A stretch of 27,558 nt of DNA, from IMG/VR virus record IMGVR_UViG_3300044911_000590, positions 1 to 27,558 of that record, one strand, 5' to 3'. The notes under the pieces were generated by a model. That model searched no databases and was not told where the DNA came from. It worked only from the letters and a program-made list of their open reading frames with translations. Origin of the DNA: a virus. The position numbers and the translations under genes are program-made. This document shows, in pieces, positions 3,083-20,285 of the stretch (positions are counted from its first letter, which is position 1; each line of letters opens with the position of its first letter).

Positions 3083-3331
3083 ATGATCGAGGTCATCGCT
3101 GCTATTGCTGGAGCGTCGATCTCCGTTGCCGCGATGGGCGCGATGGGCTTTAGCCGTCGCAACGATGAAGCACGCGAAGCTGTAATCAGACTGACCGCTG
3201 CCGTAGAGCATATTGCCACACAGCTAGAGGTGCTGCATACGGACATCAAGGAAGACCGTAAGGAAACTTTTTCACGTCTTAATGGCGTTGAGCAGCGCGT
3301 GACTATGCTTGAGGCACGGCCTACACGCTAA
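3083..3331 (+). CDS. Single-pass membrane protein with coiled coil, 82 aa
   Basis: An N-terminal hydrophobic helix (about residues 2-22, IEVIAAIAGASISVAAMGAM) is followed by a charged helical region with heptad character (about 30-76, including HIATQLEVLHTDIKEDRKE and VEQRVTMLEA). The membrane anchor plus coiled coil, placed three genes before the endolysin, fits a lysis accessory protein (holin, antiholin or spanin-like), but no family was recognised. It is followed 4 nt later by another small membrane protein. Confidence 0.65.
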   Translation: MIEVIAAIAGASISVAAMGAMGFSRRNDEAREAVIRLTAAVEHIATQLEVLHTDIKEDRKETFSRLNGVEQRVTMLEARPTR

Positions 3332-3335
3332 CCCC

Positions 3336-3476
3336 GTGGACTTCCTTTCTCATCCCGCCTTCTGGATTATCGTTGCTGCTGCTAGCGAGCTGATCGCCAT
3401 TAGCCCGCTGAAGAGCAACAGCATTGTGCAGCTGGTGTTTCAGGTACTGAACCTGCTGAAAGCAAAAAAGCGCTGA
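3336..3476 (+). CDS. Small membrane protein, 46 aa, with probable -1 frameshift extension
   Basis: GTG start 4 nt after the previous stop. The product has one long hydrophobic stretch (FWIIVAAASELIAIS), a second amphipathic segment (IVQLVFQVLNLL) and a basic end KAKKR. I recall similar short proteins next to cyanophage endolysins. A holin-like or lysis-regulating role is possible but unproven. The end of the gene carries the slippery heptamer A_AAA_AAG (3464-3470) in the correct phase, six bases before a stem-loop. A -1 shift would bypass the TGA at 3474 and continue to 3676, giving a 113-residue product. Confidence 0.65.
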   Translation: MDFLSHPAFWIIVAAASELIAISPLKSNSIVQLVFQVLNLLKAKKR

Positions 3477-3509
3477 CCTCGTTCGCTATTCGCAAACAGC
3501 GATTCGAGG
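3464..3509 (+). promoter_or_regulatory. Predicted -1 programmed ribosomal frameshift signal
   Basis: Slippery A_AAA_AAG at 3464-3470 is read in zero frame as gca-aaa-aag. A 6-nt spacer follows (3471-3476, containing the zero-frame stop). The stem-loop pairs CCTCG (3477-3481) with CGAGG (3505-3509) and TCGCT (3483-3487) with AGCGA (3498-3502) around a 10-nt loop, with a 1x2 internal loop. The heptamer is the dnaX-type shift site, and the spacing matches known stimulatory structures. The arrangement is directly visible; its function is inferred. Confidence 0.6.
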
Positions 3510-3676
3510 CCCAGTTGCCGGCCAAACTAGACCAAGCCGAAGCGGACTGGCACGCAGCGCAGCCCGTAGGCCCTGAGCCGGTGATTACGCATCACCCAGT
3601 AGACGACACACTGCAAACCGGAGATAGCCGCCTGCTTGGCGGTGCAATGGAGATCAAGTCACCATGGTCAAACTGA
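3470..3676 (+). CDS. Frameshift-only extension frame, 68 codons, before the endolysin
   Basis: In the -1 frame, 68 sense codons run from 3470 to a TGA at 3674-3676. The frame is open from about 3407 but has no ATG, GTG or TTG before the slippery site; the only ATG lies about 10 codons from its end. The product is soluble and protein-like: FAIRKQRFEAQLPAKLDQAE, then a Pro/His-rich part (PVGPEPVITHHPVDD) and LLGGAMEIKSPWSN. Its stop lies 10 nt inside the endolysin gene, so translation of the extension could couple to endolysin initiation. If the frameshift is not real, this is either a non-coding gap or the product of an indel in the A6 run. Confidence 0.5.
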   Translation, partial: ALTSFAIRKQRFEAQLPAKLDQAEADWHAAQPVGPEPVITHHPVDDTLQTGDSRLLGGAMEIKSPWSN

Positions 3677-4722
3677 GCGACCTGTTCCGGTACTACAAGC
3701 ACGGCACGCCACACCAAATGGCGGCCATCTCTGAATTGGAAGCGGAGCTATTAAAGGTTGCGCCTGCAATCTTGAATAGGGACCAAGCCTGGTACAAAAC
3801 CTGGCAGCAAGGCGGCAAGCTGCATAATTATGGGCCAGCGATAAAGCTGATAAAAGAGTTTGAGGGCTGCCACCTAAGCGCTTACCCTGATCCGCTTAGC
3901 GGCGGCGACCCGTGGACCATCGGCTATGGCACCACCAGGTACAGCGATGGCCGCAAGGTGCAACGCGGCGACAAGATTACAGTTATTGAAGCCAGCAGCC
4001 TGCTTGAACTTGAGATAGACCGCATTGCCGCCAAGCTGCGTGCGACGGTGCCGTTTTGGAATGCCATGAGCGGCAACCAGCAATGTGCGCTGATTAGCTT
4101 TGCCTACAACCTGGGCAGCGGGTTCTACGGATCCGAAGGATTTGAGACGATCAGCAAACGGCTGAAGGGCAAGGACTGGGCAGGCGTCCCTGATGCGCTG
4201 CTGCTGTACCGCAACCCCGGCACCAACGTCGAGGCTGGTTTGCTACGTCGCCGGCAGGCAGAAGGCAGGCTGTGGGTTGGCGATCAGCAGCAGGGAGCAG
4301 CCAAACTGACGCCTAGCAGTCCGTTCAGCGCACGGATCACGCCGCACATCCGAATCGGTGAGTTTGCGCTAGACCAAGAGGCACGGCGCTTTGATCACCA
4401 GTACCAAGTAGATACCGCAGCTGAGCTGGCAGCATTCCTAGAACGCGCTCGTGGTGCATTTGGCAACAAGCCGCTCATCATCACGTCGGGTTACAGACCA
4501 GCAGCCATCAATCGGCAGGTAGGTGGTGCCAGCGGCAGCGAGCACCTATTTAATGCGCCCGGCGTGGGTGCAGTTGACTGGTATATCAACGGCGTGGACA
4601 TCTATAAGCTGCAGGACTGGTGCGTCAAGCATTGGCCATACAGCACTGGACTAGGCGCACCCAAGGGCTTTATCCATACCGGCATCCGCCAAGGCAGGCC
4701 GCGTCTCACTTGGCCTTATTAG
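3664..4722 (+). CDS. Two-domain endolysin: GH24 lysozyme plus M15-type peptidase
   Basis: Residues about 57-205 are a T4/lambdoid-type GH24 muramidase: catalytic Glu67 in KEFEG, Asp76 in YPDP and Thr85 in PWTIGYGTT. Residues about 230-352 resemble D-Ala-D-Ala peptidases of the M15 family (YcbK-like): ITSGYRP, putative zinc ligands His294 (SEHLF), Asp305 (GAVDWY) and His338 (FIHTGI). It would cut both the glycan strand and the stem peptide of peptidoglycan at lysis. There is no signal peptide, so release should need a holin, and small membrane proteins lie just upstream. A weak GGAG at 3649-3652 is 11 nt from the ATG, and the gene overlaps the upstream -1-frame extension by 13 nt. Confidence 0.88.
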   Translation: MVKLSDLFRYYKHGTPHQMAAISELEAELLKVAPAILNRDQAWYKTWQQGGKLHNYGPAIKLIKEFEGCHLSAYPDPLSGGDPWTIGYGTTRYSDGRKVQRGDKITVIEASSLLELEIDRIAAKLRATVPFWNAMSGNQQCALISFAYNLGSGFYGSEGFETISKRLKGKDWAGVPDALLLYRNPGTNVEAGLLRRRQAEGRLWVGDQQQGAAKLTPSSPFSARITPHIRIGEFALDQEARRFDHQYQVDTAAELAAFLERARGAFGNKPLIITSGYRPAAINRQVGGASGSEHLFNAPGVGAVDWYINGVDIYKLQDWCVKHWPYSTGLGAPKGFIHTGIRQGRPRLTWPY

Positions 4723-18705: not shown

Positions 18706-19029
18706 ATGGCGCGTAAAAGCACTAAAGACGAGATCCAAAACCGCGTAAATGAGGTTTATGGATTACTTTTGCGTGCATGGAATCATAATCAAATTGTTCA
18801 ATACGGTTCCGAAAAGTGGGGAATAAGTGAACGTCAAGTGCGTGATTATTTGGCTGAAGCGCGTAAATTAATGGCGCTTGACGCTGAGCTGGAGCGGCCT
18901 CAGTGGCTTGAAGCTGCTTTAGCGCGGCTGCAAGATTACGAGCGCATTGCACGCGAGAACAATCAAGTCGGCCTTGCCATGACTGCAGTAGAGAAGCAAG
19001 CCAGGCTGCTGCGGTTTGAGATGTCGTGA
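18706..19029 (+). CDS. Probable terminase small subunit, 107 aa
   Basis: The N-terminal half contains a helix-turn-helix-like region (NQIVQYGSEKWGISERQVRD) and the C-terminal half is a long helix (EAALARLQDYERIARENNQV, GLAMTAVEKQARLLRFEM), the layout of small terminases that bind pac/cos DNA and assemble as rings. Its place just before the methyltransferase and the large terminase supports this. The first half is AT-richer than its surroundings. The stop overlaps the methyltransferase GTG by 4 nt. Confidence 0.7.
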   Translation: MARKSTKDEIQNRVNEVYGLLLRAWNHNQIVQYGSEKWGISERQVRDYLAEARKLMALDAELERPQWLEAALARLQDYERIARENNQVGLAMTAVEKQARLLRFEMS

Positions 19030-20285
19030 TTCAGTTACTACACGGCGACTGCTTAGAACGGCTGCGCGAGCTGCCGGACTGCAGCGTGGATGCGTGCGTG
19101 ACGGATCCGCCGTATGGGCTGAGCTTCATGGGCAAGGCGTGGGACTACGACGTGCCCACGGTGGAGGTGTGGCGCGAGGTGCTGCGGGTGCTGAAGCCTG
19201 GCGGGCACCTGCTGGCGTTCGCGGGCACCAGGACGCAGCACCGGATGGCGGTGCAGATCGAGGATGCCGGCTTTGAGATCCGCGACATGATCGCGTGGGT
19301 GTATGGGTCGGGGTTTCCGAAATCGCTGGATGTGAGCAAGGCGATCGACAAGCACGGTGGCGCATCGGTCGCATGGTTCGGCCCGTGGTTCCGCAAGTGG
19401 AGGACTGAGCACGGAATCACGCAAAAGCAGGTAGCGGCGCTGTTCCCGAGCAAGACTGGCGGGCTAACTGGCTGCGTGGCCAACTGGGAGCTGGGTTTCA
19501 ATCTGCCAACTCCTGATCAGTTCAACCTGATCCGCGACACCTTTGGGCTGCCGTTCGACAGCATCGAGGCAGCCGAGCGCGAAGTGGTGGGGCAGCAGCG
19601 CGGGACCGTGCTAGCTGTCGCACCCGGCCAAGACAACGACCGCAGCAGCACCACGCTGGACATCACCGCCCCCGCGACCCCTGCCGCGCAGCAATGGGCC
19701 GGCTGGGGCACAGCGCTGAAGCCAGCACTGGAGCCAATCACGGTGGCGCGCAAGCCGCTGATGGGCACGGTGGCGGCGAACGTGCTGGAGCACGGCACCG
19801 GGGCGATCAACGTGGATGGGTGTCGGGTGTCTCACGCGGAACCGTGCCGCATGATGCAGCCATCGCAGGCCAACATCGACAACCCCAGCGATAAGTGCCG
19901 GCAGGCCGGACGCCGCGAGGCTGTGCTGGAGCTAAAGCCAGAAGGCCGCTGGCCGGCGAACCTGATCCATGACGGCAGCGATGAGCCGTGCGAGCTGCTG
20001 GGCGATGCCGCCCGTTTCTTCTACTGCGCCAAGGCCAGCAAGTCTGACCGTGGCGACGGCAACGGGCACCCGACCGTCAAGCCAACCGAGCTGATGCGCT
20101 ATCTGTGCCGACTGGTGACACCACCGGGCGGCGTGGTGCTGGACCCGTTCATGGGCAGCGGCAGCACTGGCAAAGCTGCAGTGCTCGAGGGCTTCCGGTT
20201 TATCGGCATCGAGCGAGAGGCCGAGTATCTGGAGATTGCGCGCCAGCGAGTACAGGCGACTGACATGCAGGGAACGCTGTTGTGA
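19026..20285 (+). CDS. DNA methyltransferase with embedded helix-turn-helix
   Basis: Motif IV TDPPYGLSF (27-30) is near the N-terminus and the SAM-binding motif I LDPFMGSGSTG (375-382) near the C-terminus, with HPTVKPTELMRYL before it. This order fits beta-type N6-adenine or N4-cytosine enzymes. Residues about 118-190 are not part of the usual catalytic fold: WFRKWRTEHGITQKQVAALF and CVANWELGFNLPTPDQFN form an XRE-like helix-turn-helix inserted in the variable region, perhaps the target-recognition domain. The gene lies between the two terminase subunits with 4-nt overlaps on both sides. No restriction partner is visible, so self-protection or regulation is likely. Confidence 0.9.
   Translation: MIQLLHGDCLERLRELPDCSVDACVTDPPYGLSFMGKAWDYDVPTVEVWREVLRVLKPGGHLLAFAGTRTQHRMAVQIEDAGFEIRDMIAWVYGSGFPKSLDVSKAIDKHGGASVAWFGPWFRKWRTEHGITQKQVAALFPSKTGGLTGCVANWELGFNLPTPDQFNLIRDTFGLPFDSIEAAEREVVGQQRGTVLAVAPGQDNDRSSTTLDITAPATPAAQQWAGWGTALKPALEPITVARKPLMGTVAANVLEHGTGAINVDGCRVSHAEPCRMMQPSQANIDNPSDKCRQAGRREAVLELKPEGRWPANLIHDGSDEPCELLGDAARFFYCAKASKSDRGDGNGHPTVKPTELMRYLCRLVTPPGGVVLDPFMGSGSTGKAAVLEGFRFIGIEREAEYLEIARQRVQATDMQGTLL

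Follow-up and report, generated by a model that had tools for sequence, protein, structure and literature searches.

A conserved programmed −1 ribosomal frameshift at a slippery heptamer of the form X_XXA_AAG very probably extends a small phage membrane protein, as judged from comparative sequence analysis. Bacterial viruses would thereby gain a new and widespread family of recoded genes, seen in many phages of Synechococcus-type cyanobacteria and using a known mechanism. The sequence under study (hereafter the window) comprises the 27,558 bases of virus record IMGVR_UViG_3300044911_000590, which come from a cyanophage and include genes for a portal, a terminase, a sigma factor, a RecT-like annealing protein and an integrase. 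The features mapped between 3083 and 4722 lie on the plus strand.

The slippery site and the −1 frame in the window

The zero-frame gene (3336–3476) starts at a GTG and encodes a 46-aa membrane protein (VDFLSHPAFWIIVAAASELIAISPLKSNSIVQLVFQVLNLLKAKKR). Close to its end, the heptamer A_AAA_AAG (3464–3470) lies in phase (GCA AAA AAG, then CGC and TGA), placing the zero-frame stop (TGA, 3474–3476) one sense codon past the heptamer, a spacing shared by 186 of the 194 distinct loci described below. The −1 frame is open from 3404 and encodes a 68-aa tail after the heptamer (3471–3676; TGA 3674–3676), so that the fusion would be 45 + 68 = 113 aa long. No ATG, GTG or TTG precedes the heptamer in this frame; the first is the TTG at 3515. 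An earlier note on this DNA had placed the heptamer and the nearby stop correctly, and had rightly described the −1 frame as open to 3676 with no start before the site.

Heptamers of the class A_AAA_AAG, C_CCA_AAG or G_GGA_AAG were found in phase at only seven of 13,792 codon positions in window open frames of at least 100 codons. Set against this background, their presence near the gene end in 193 of 194 distinct loci puts the arrangement of heptamer and frames far beyond chance. In the available text of PMC4066793, these three heptamers rank highest in efficiency in E. coli when IS911 or IS3 stimulators are present.

The arrangement is conserved across phage lineages

We assembled related loci through a scan with the tail (best 80 of 120 viral contigs), a scan with the S-B28 membrane protein (best 80 of 106) and four further scans (49, 4, best 80 of 86, and 3 contigs). 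The loci are therefore related sequences retrieved by protein homology to a few queries, and two of the search peptides (KKALTSFA and INALKPKK) cover the KK of the slippery site, which introduces a mild retrieval bias. The sample comprised 323 sequences including the window. The membrane protein was present in 313 and a match to the tail profile in 285, with 281 combining the two; removal of identical stretches reduced these 281 to 194 distinct loci.

The tail stood in the −1 relation to the membrane protein in all 194; a continuous single frame, the arrangement that the earlier note had set against its own reading, was seen in none, nor was a +1 relation. Only in-phase heptamers were looked for, and these were A_AAA_AAG in 157 loci, C_CCA_AAG in 30, G_GGA_AAG in six and G_AAA_AAG in one. 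Locus L053 reads GGG AAA AAG, not a canonical heptamer, yet its tail is intact. With 194 of 194 tails in the −1 frame and 193 of 194 loci carrying a canonical heptamer, these comparisons strongly support the original proposal of a programmed −1 frameshift that would yield a 113-aa form besides the short one.

The membrane protein is conserved across loci, and the heptamer and the tail come and go together. A −1 tail is present in 292 of the 313 membrane-protein loci and absent from 21. Those 21 account for most of the 32 loci with no tail-profile match; the other 11, of S-B28 type, have A_AAA_AAG followed by a short −1 tail whose final motif resembles WSISLTSPW, and lie outside the 194 because the profile misses such short tails. 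In-phase X_XXA_AAG was absent from all 21 tailless loci, and none of the 313 loci had such a heptamer without a −1 tail, so that the search for relatives with the heptamer and a closed −1 frame came up empty.

The lineages lacking the −1 tail include a P60 type, whose charged tail is in frame, and an Oinezvirus type, with CCA AAG AAA/AAG at the corresponding place. The latter (L087, L124, L127, L131, L136, L138–L140, L145, L146, L149 and L172) keeps the membrane protein and has neither the slippery heptamer nor the −1 tail, making it a natural contrast to the frameshift loci. A smaller first set of 130 distinct zero-frame loci gave 110 with a tail (109 with a canonical heptamer), 19 with neither and one cut off (L114, which ends inside the tail and was excluded from the 110); L101 and L083, missed by the motif pattern, were added by hand. 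Four loci with the tail at the very end of the stretch but no zero-frame match (L049, L072, L080 and L194) were left uncounted.

Seven cultured phages have the same layout: S-CBS1, S-CBS3, KBS-S-2A, S-EIV1, S-B28, 7B11-B and WH11-B. S-CBS3 is the nearest annotated relative that we found, and its two frames are annotated as two genes, gp21 and gp22. Our reading would correct the annotation of all seven, the tail being called as a separate gene in S-CBS1, S-CBS3 and S-EIV1 and not called in the −1 frame in KBS-S-2A, S-B28, 7B11-B and WH11-B. Annotation gaps cover the tail of KBS-S-2A, the membrane protein and tail of S-B28 (NC_048171) and the membrane protein of S-EIV1 (L086:2633–2865, L090:2483–2814, L004:2199–2339). 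Cellular genomes yielded a single matching locus, on a contig in a Hyphomonadaceae MAG. A Microviridae genome from sea-squirt gut (H27/L092, L092:1486–1632) encodes a small hairpin weakly like the membrane protein (E 7e-3), and its locus has no canonical heptamer.

The heptamer and the −1 tail evolve under constraint

The residue before KK varies among loci (A, G, P, Q, E, S, V or T), yet among the 158 loci with AAA AAG at the site the preceding base is A in 157. Under a synonymous-codon null, the chance of such a heptamer is 0.045–0.146 per lineage. Summed across 15 tail clusters from the first 110 loci, log10 p was −14.5, for clusters that are not fully independent and with no phylogeny correction. 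The pair L259 and L312 is telling. Their membrane proteins are near-identical and their tails 93% identical, but the heptamer is A_AAA_AAG at one locus and G_GGA_AAG at the second, a comparison in which the sequence has changed and its slipperiness has been kept. The 194 distinct loci, with one of the three best heptamers in 193 and this near-identical swap pair among them, offer a natural sample for testing the rules of frameshifting by comparison beyond E. coli.

In 75 non-overlapping pairs of loci, changes at −1 codon positions 1/2/3 numbered 338/185/1020 (the test omits the last 12 tail codons and pairs differing by <3% or >30%). When only codons before any ATG, GTG or TTG of both members were counted, the same pairs gave 74/56/293 (p 2e-51), and 42 pairs of the smaller first set gave 51/32/164. 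The comparisons thus show a conserved coding arrangement that evolves as protein, with the −1 tail under purifying selection.

Three other origins of the layout have to be weighed against ribosomal frameshifting. The tail could be a separate gene with its own ATG, GTG or TTG, coupled to the end of the zero frame, with the heptamer incidental. Annotation takes this form in S-CBS3 (gp22, with its ATG 45 nt past the end of gp21), S-CBS1 (gp23) and S-EIV1; TTG 3515 has a GAGG upstream in the window and its closest relatives and could start a lone 53-aa tail; and in S-CRES1 the membrane-protein homologue is followed by a motif-bearing gene that is genuinely separate. However, a WHxxQP pattern is present in all but one of the 194 tails, and in 104 of these 193, spanning 20 of 29 clusters, no start codon lies between the heptamer and the pattern; an ATG does so in just 20 of 193. 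No start position is common across groups, the conserved heptamer would be left unexplained, and the codons that precede every start change in the manner of protein-coding sequence. Because the −1 frame behaves as protein from the site up to the first start codon available, we consider a separate start improbable.

The same observation excludes an A6-run indel introduced during sequencing or assembly. Such an error, which the earlier note had warned would give the same picture, would suit the window taken by itself, a single metagenomic contig with a homopolymer at the junction. The layout nevertheless recurs in 194 distinct loci, including 36 with no A6 run (C_CCA_AAG or G_GGA_AAG), and in the seven cultured phages, and a decayed gene is at odds with a conserved membrane protein and purifying selection on the tail; this explanation is already refuted for practical purposes. 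RNA polymerase stuttering on the A run might also make the fusion, and the A_AAA_AAG class does have runs of six or more A. Yet the longest run in the 36 loci of the C and G classes is three, which makes transcriptional slippage unlikely, and stuttering needs no codon phase, whereas 193 of 194 loci have an in-phase heptamer (only in-phase ones were searched). We rate it as somewhat less probable still than a separate start, and ribosomal frameshifting is the reading that we retain.

Candidate stimulatory structures differ between lineages

A candidate stem-loop lies just downstream of the zero-frame stop (3477–3509; 5+5 bp with a 1x2 internal loop, plus four outer pairs). The earlier note had described it as a 10-bp stem-loop, and it can indeed be drawn; its stability (−16.6 kcal/mol, z −1.15) was equaled or exceeded by 32 of 200 shuffles, so the window stem alone is not beyond chance. 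The stem group of the window, only three distinct and near-identical sequences, gave p 0.19 against column shuffles. Across 19 representatives, mean folding z in 50-nt windows 0–20 nt downstream was about −0.9 to −1.3, and upstream values were 0.1 to −0.2 just before the heptamer and −0.66 at 60 nt. Consensus folds by group beat column shuffles in four of nine groups (p 0.03 or less) and did not in five; the better-than-shuffle folds had broken pairs and few compensatory changes except in the largest group, whose alignment is mixed. A single downstream stem common to all groups was rejected, as the consensus folds differ between groups. In the comparison of homologues that the earlier note had proposed as a check on heptamer, stem and −1 frame, the heptamer and the frame were conserved and no one stem was shared.

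The E. coli dnaX frameshift uses an A_AAA_AAG heptamer with a Shine-Dalgarno-like element upstream. The window shares that heptamer with dnaX, but the dnaX shift shortens its product and the shift proposed here lengthens it. A Shine-Dalgarno-like element 6–17 nt upstream of the heptamer (a spacing from the available text of PMC4066793, where dnaX is named) was found at 0 of 194 loci, compared with 23 of 581 control windows. With no Shine-Dalgarno-like stimulator upstream, no shared stem and a lengthened product, the label "dnaX-type" first given to the site is unsupported. Together with the group-specific folds, the missing upstream element suggests a signal consisting of the heptamer and the nearby stop, with at most lineage-specific structure, which is not the dnaX arrangement.

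A predicted membrane hairpin with and without a tail

The 46-aa protein is modeled as a two-helix hairpin (helices 7–22 and 29–45; pLDDT 85.3) in which helix 7–22 is hydrophobic (mean hydropathy 1.94), helix 29–45 is amphipathic and the C-terminus reads KAKKR. It matches phrog_22542 at 5.6e-23. PHROG families 22542 and 15106, both of unknown function, and S-CRES1 gp105 are homologous to the membrane part. In PHROG 15106 (P60 type), however, that part continues into an in-frame charged tail with no heptamer, and in S-CRES1 the motif part is encoded as a gene of its own. Searches for a lysis or holin family gave no match in Pfam, one meaningless weak match in NCBIfam and only families of unknown function in PHROG.

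The tail was modeled separately as one helix followed by low-confidence coil (pLDDT 71.2, pTM 0.33). The predicted helix covers tail residues 2–32 (3467–3559; mean pLDDT of 81–89 per block in residues 1–30), and the second hairpin helix would continue into it in the long form. The conserved C-terminal motif, DDTLQTGDSRLLGGAMEIKSPW (residues 47–68; 3602–3667), lies within the coil.

These features point to the following mechanism. Most ribosomes would stop at the zero-frame TGA and release the 46-aa membrane hairpin. In a minority, and we infer at a useful rate, both tRNAs would re-pair one base back on the heptamer and translation would run on for 68 more codons, giving a 113-aa form with the same hairpin, a helix likely reaching into the cytoplasm and a flexible end with LGGxMxIxxPW.

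Two cyanophage proteins that are encoded in one frame, S-CAM7 gp243 and S-CRES1 gp104, end in a like motif; both belong to phrog_3316, which the tail of one surveyed locus (L160) matches at 1.4e-5. Cyanomyovirus T4-GC 410 proteins (phrog_6464) have a weaker version that is not at the very end, and the S-B28 tail matches them at 6.5e-4. S-CRES1 encodes the membrane-protein homologue (gp105) and the motif protein (gp104) as separate neighboring genes. The motif may be a shared docking peptide, and its presence in separate single-frame genes suggests that the tail is a separable module with more than one route to the membrane. Some of these single-frame motif proteins (L179:988–1374, L184:1000–1296, L180–L183 and L185) have hydrophobic N-terminal segments.

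Genomic setting and a possible role in lysis

In the window, the membrane-protein gene lies between a gene for an 82-aa protein (3083–3331) and an endolysin gene (3664–4722; Phage_lysozyme and Peptidase_M15_3). The 82-aa protein has a hydrophobic N-terminal stretch followed by a charged, coiled-coil-like part, and matches phrog_26178 at 4e-43 and, weakly, phrog_937 "hemolysin" at 8e-4. By our reading, a small protein of similar build also precedes the membrane protein in some other phages; no sequence similarity was found between the 82-aa protein and its counterparts in S-B28 and S-CBS4.

We lean toward assigning the gene to lysis on account of its position, next to the endolysin or, in podoviruses, a short way ahead of terS. 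A gene annotated as endolysin, lysozyme, muramidase or glycoside hydrolase is adjacent or one gene away in the window, S-CBS1, S-CBS3 and KBS-S-2A, and the same neighborhood recurs in relatives with no frameshift: P60, S-CBP1, S-CBP2, S-CBP42, S-SRP01 (annotated glycoside hydrolase) and S-CBS4. The genes that follow in S-EIV1 lie on the opposite strand, and the third of them is annotated lysozyme. In S-B28, 7B11-B and WH11-B, the gene lies shortly before terS or endonuclease genes, a slot that we take to correspond to that of T7 holin gene 17.5, before terS. Among marks of a holin, adjacency to the endolysin is seen in the window, S-CBS1, S-CBS3 and KBS-S-2A and not in the S-B28 type. The available part of PMC9096620 lists a charged C-terminus and one or more transmembrane helices as holin features; both are predicted for the 46-aa protein, which is smaller than the 65–95 aa quoted there for class II holins.

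The frameshift could instead be real and serve something other than lysis, such as a two-form protein in assembly, DNA packaging or host takeover, with the neighborhood coincidental. The position just before terS and endonuclease genes in podoviruses would fit such a role, as would the sharing of the motif with myovirus proteins that lie away from annotated lysis genes (in the stretches inspected) and the lack of a sequence match to any lysis family. Against it stand the lysis-enzyme genes adjacent or one gene away in the nine named phages listed above. We regard a role outside lysis as a real possibility, though not the one that we favor. Within the lysis reading, a tentative assignment would make the short form a holin-like protein, with the long form joining its oligomer at lower abundance as a regulator or anchor.

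The tail and the endolysin gene overlap. The earlier note had the tail ending on the endolysin start, and the endolysin ATG (3664) does lie within the last codons of the −1 tail, overlapping its end by 13 nt. Across 50 representatives, the tail overlaps an endolysin-like frame in 38, that frame starting 8–32 nt before the tail end (judged by N-terminus likeness, taking the first possible start); in S-CBS3, the annotated endolysin start overlaps the tail by 4 nt. The earlier note had proposed that the two forms are made in a fixed ratio and that ribosomes ending at 3676 may reinitiate at the endolysin ATG, which would tie lysis timing to the frameshift rate. Because S-B28, 7B11-B, WH11-B and S-EIV1 have the frameshift and not this coupling, coupling to the endolysin is not its general purpose. 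The overlap would allow such coupling, at most as an addition.

More speculatively, and with the whole chain rather unlikely to hold, Synechococcus phages of several families might set lysis by recoding. Frameshift efficiency would fix the ratio of a short hairpin holin to an extended form that restrains or positions it, and the extension would be a portable docking peptide (LGGxMxIxxPW), used too by separate, membrane-anchored-looking cyanomyovirus proteins. In siphovirus-type genomes, shifted ribosomes would also cross the endolysin start region, altering endolysin initiation. If the gene does act in lysis, the frameshift offers a handle on cyanophage lysis control.

Comparison with known recoded and lysis genes

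A close parallel in form is the lambda G/GT tail-assembly chaperone, in which, as here, a −1 shift on X_XXY_YYZ near the end of a small gene adds a C-terminal extension. The available text of PMC3483164, citing Xu, Hendrix and Duda (2004), gives AAAAAAG and GGGAAAC among G/GT-type sites. The G/GT gene, however, functions in tail assembly and is found close to the tape-measure gene, whereas the gene described here, for a membrane hairpin, sits next to the endolysin or a short way ahead of terS; its neighbors in the window, the 82-aa protein and the endolysin, include no tape-measure gene. A frameshift of T7 gene 10A/10B type in phage Privateer, at GGGAAAG (PMC7881722, available portion), shares the heptamer class and a minor extended product, but the protein is a capsid protein there and a membrane protein here.

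Dual-form lysis genes such as lambda S are another parallel, in that one gene here too would yield a small membrane protein in two lengths beside the endolysin. The holin/antiholin forms of lambda S arise from two starts (PMC6316719, PMC3091744, in the parts available), whereas the forms proposed here would differ at the C-terminus, by recoding. The portions available of PMC6157547, PMC3751600, PMC6316719, PMC3556154, PMC3091744, PMC4591317, PMC4299906, PMC3483164 and PMC7881722 do not mention a programmed frameshift in a lysis gene. Among the literature matches listed, available in part, we found no frameshift in a cyanophage membrane or lysis gene and no recoding in this setting, a small membrane protein often beside lysis genes, although earlier notice is possible.

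Other features of the window

The integrase gene (1733–2587) follows soon after a tail-fibre-like gene and is 85% identical to that of the freshwater siphovirus S-LBS1, the nearest isolate by this gene. The genes after the S-LBS1 integrase differ from those in the window, and S-LBS1 was not among the membrane-protein matches at E up to 1, in a search that may omit near records. Between the integrase and the lysis region, positions 2616–2945 encode a DUF7936 protein (phrog_7802). Finally, a DNA methyltransferase (19026–20285) aligns 416 residues to just 228 PHROG profile positions (123–350), which suggests that it carries a long insertion.
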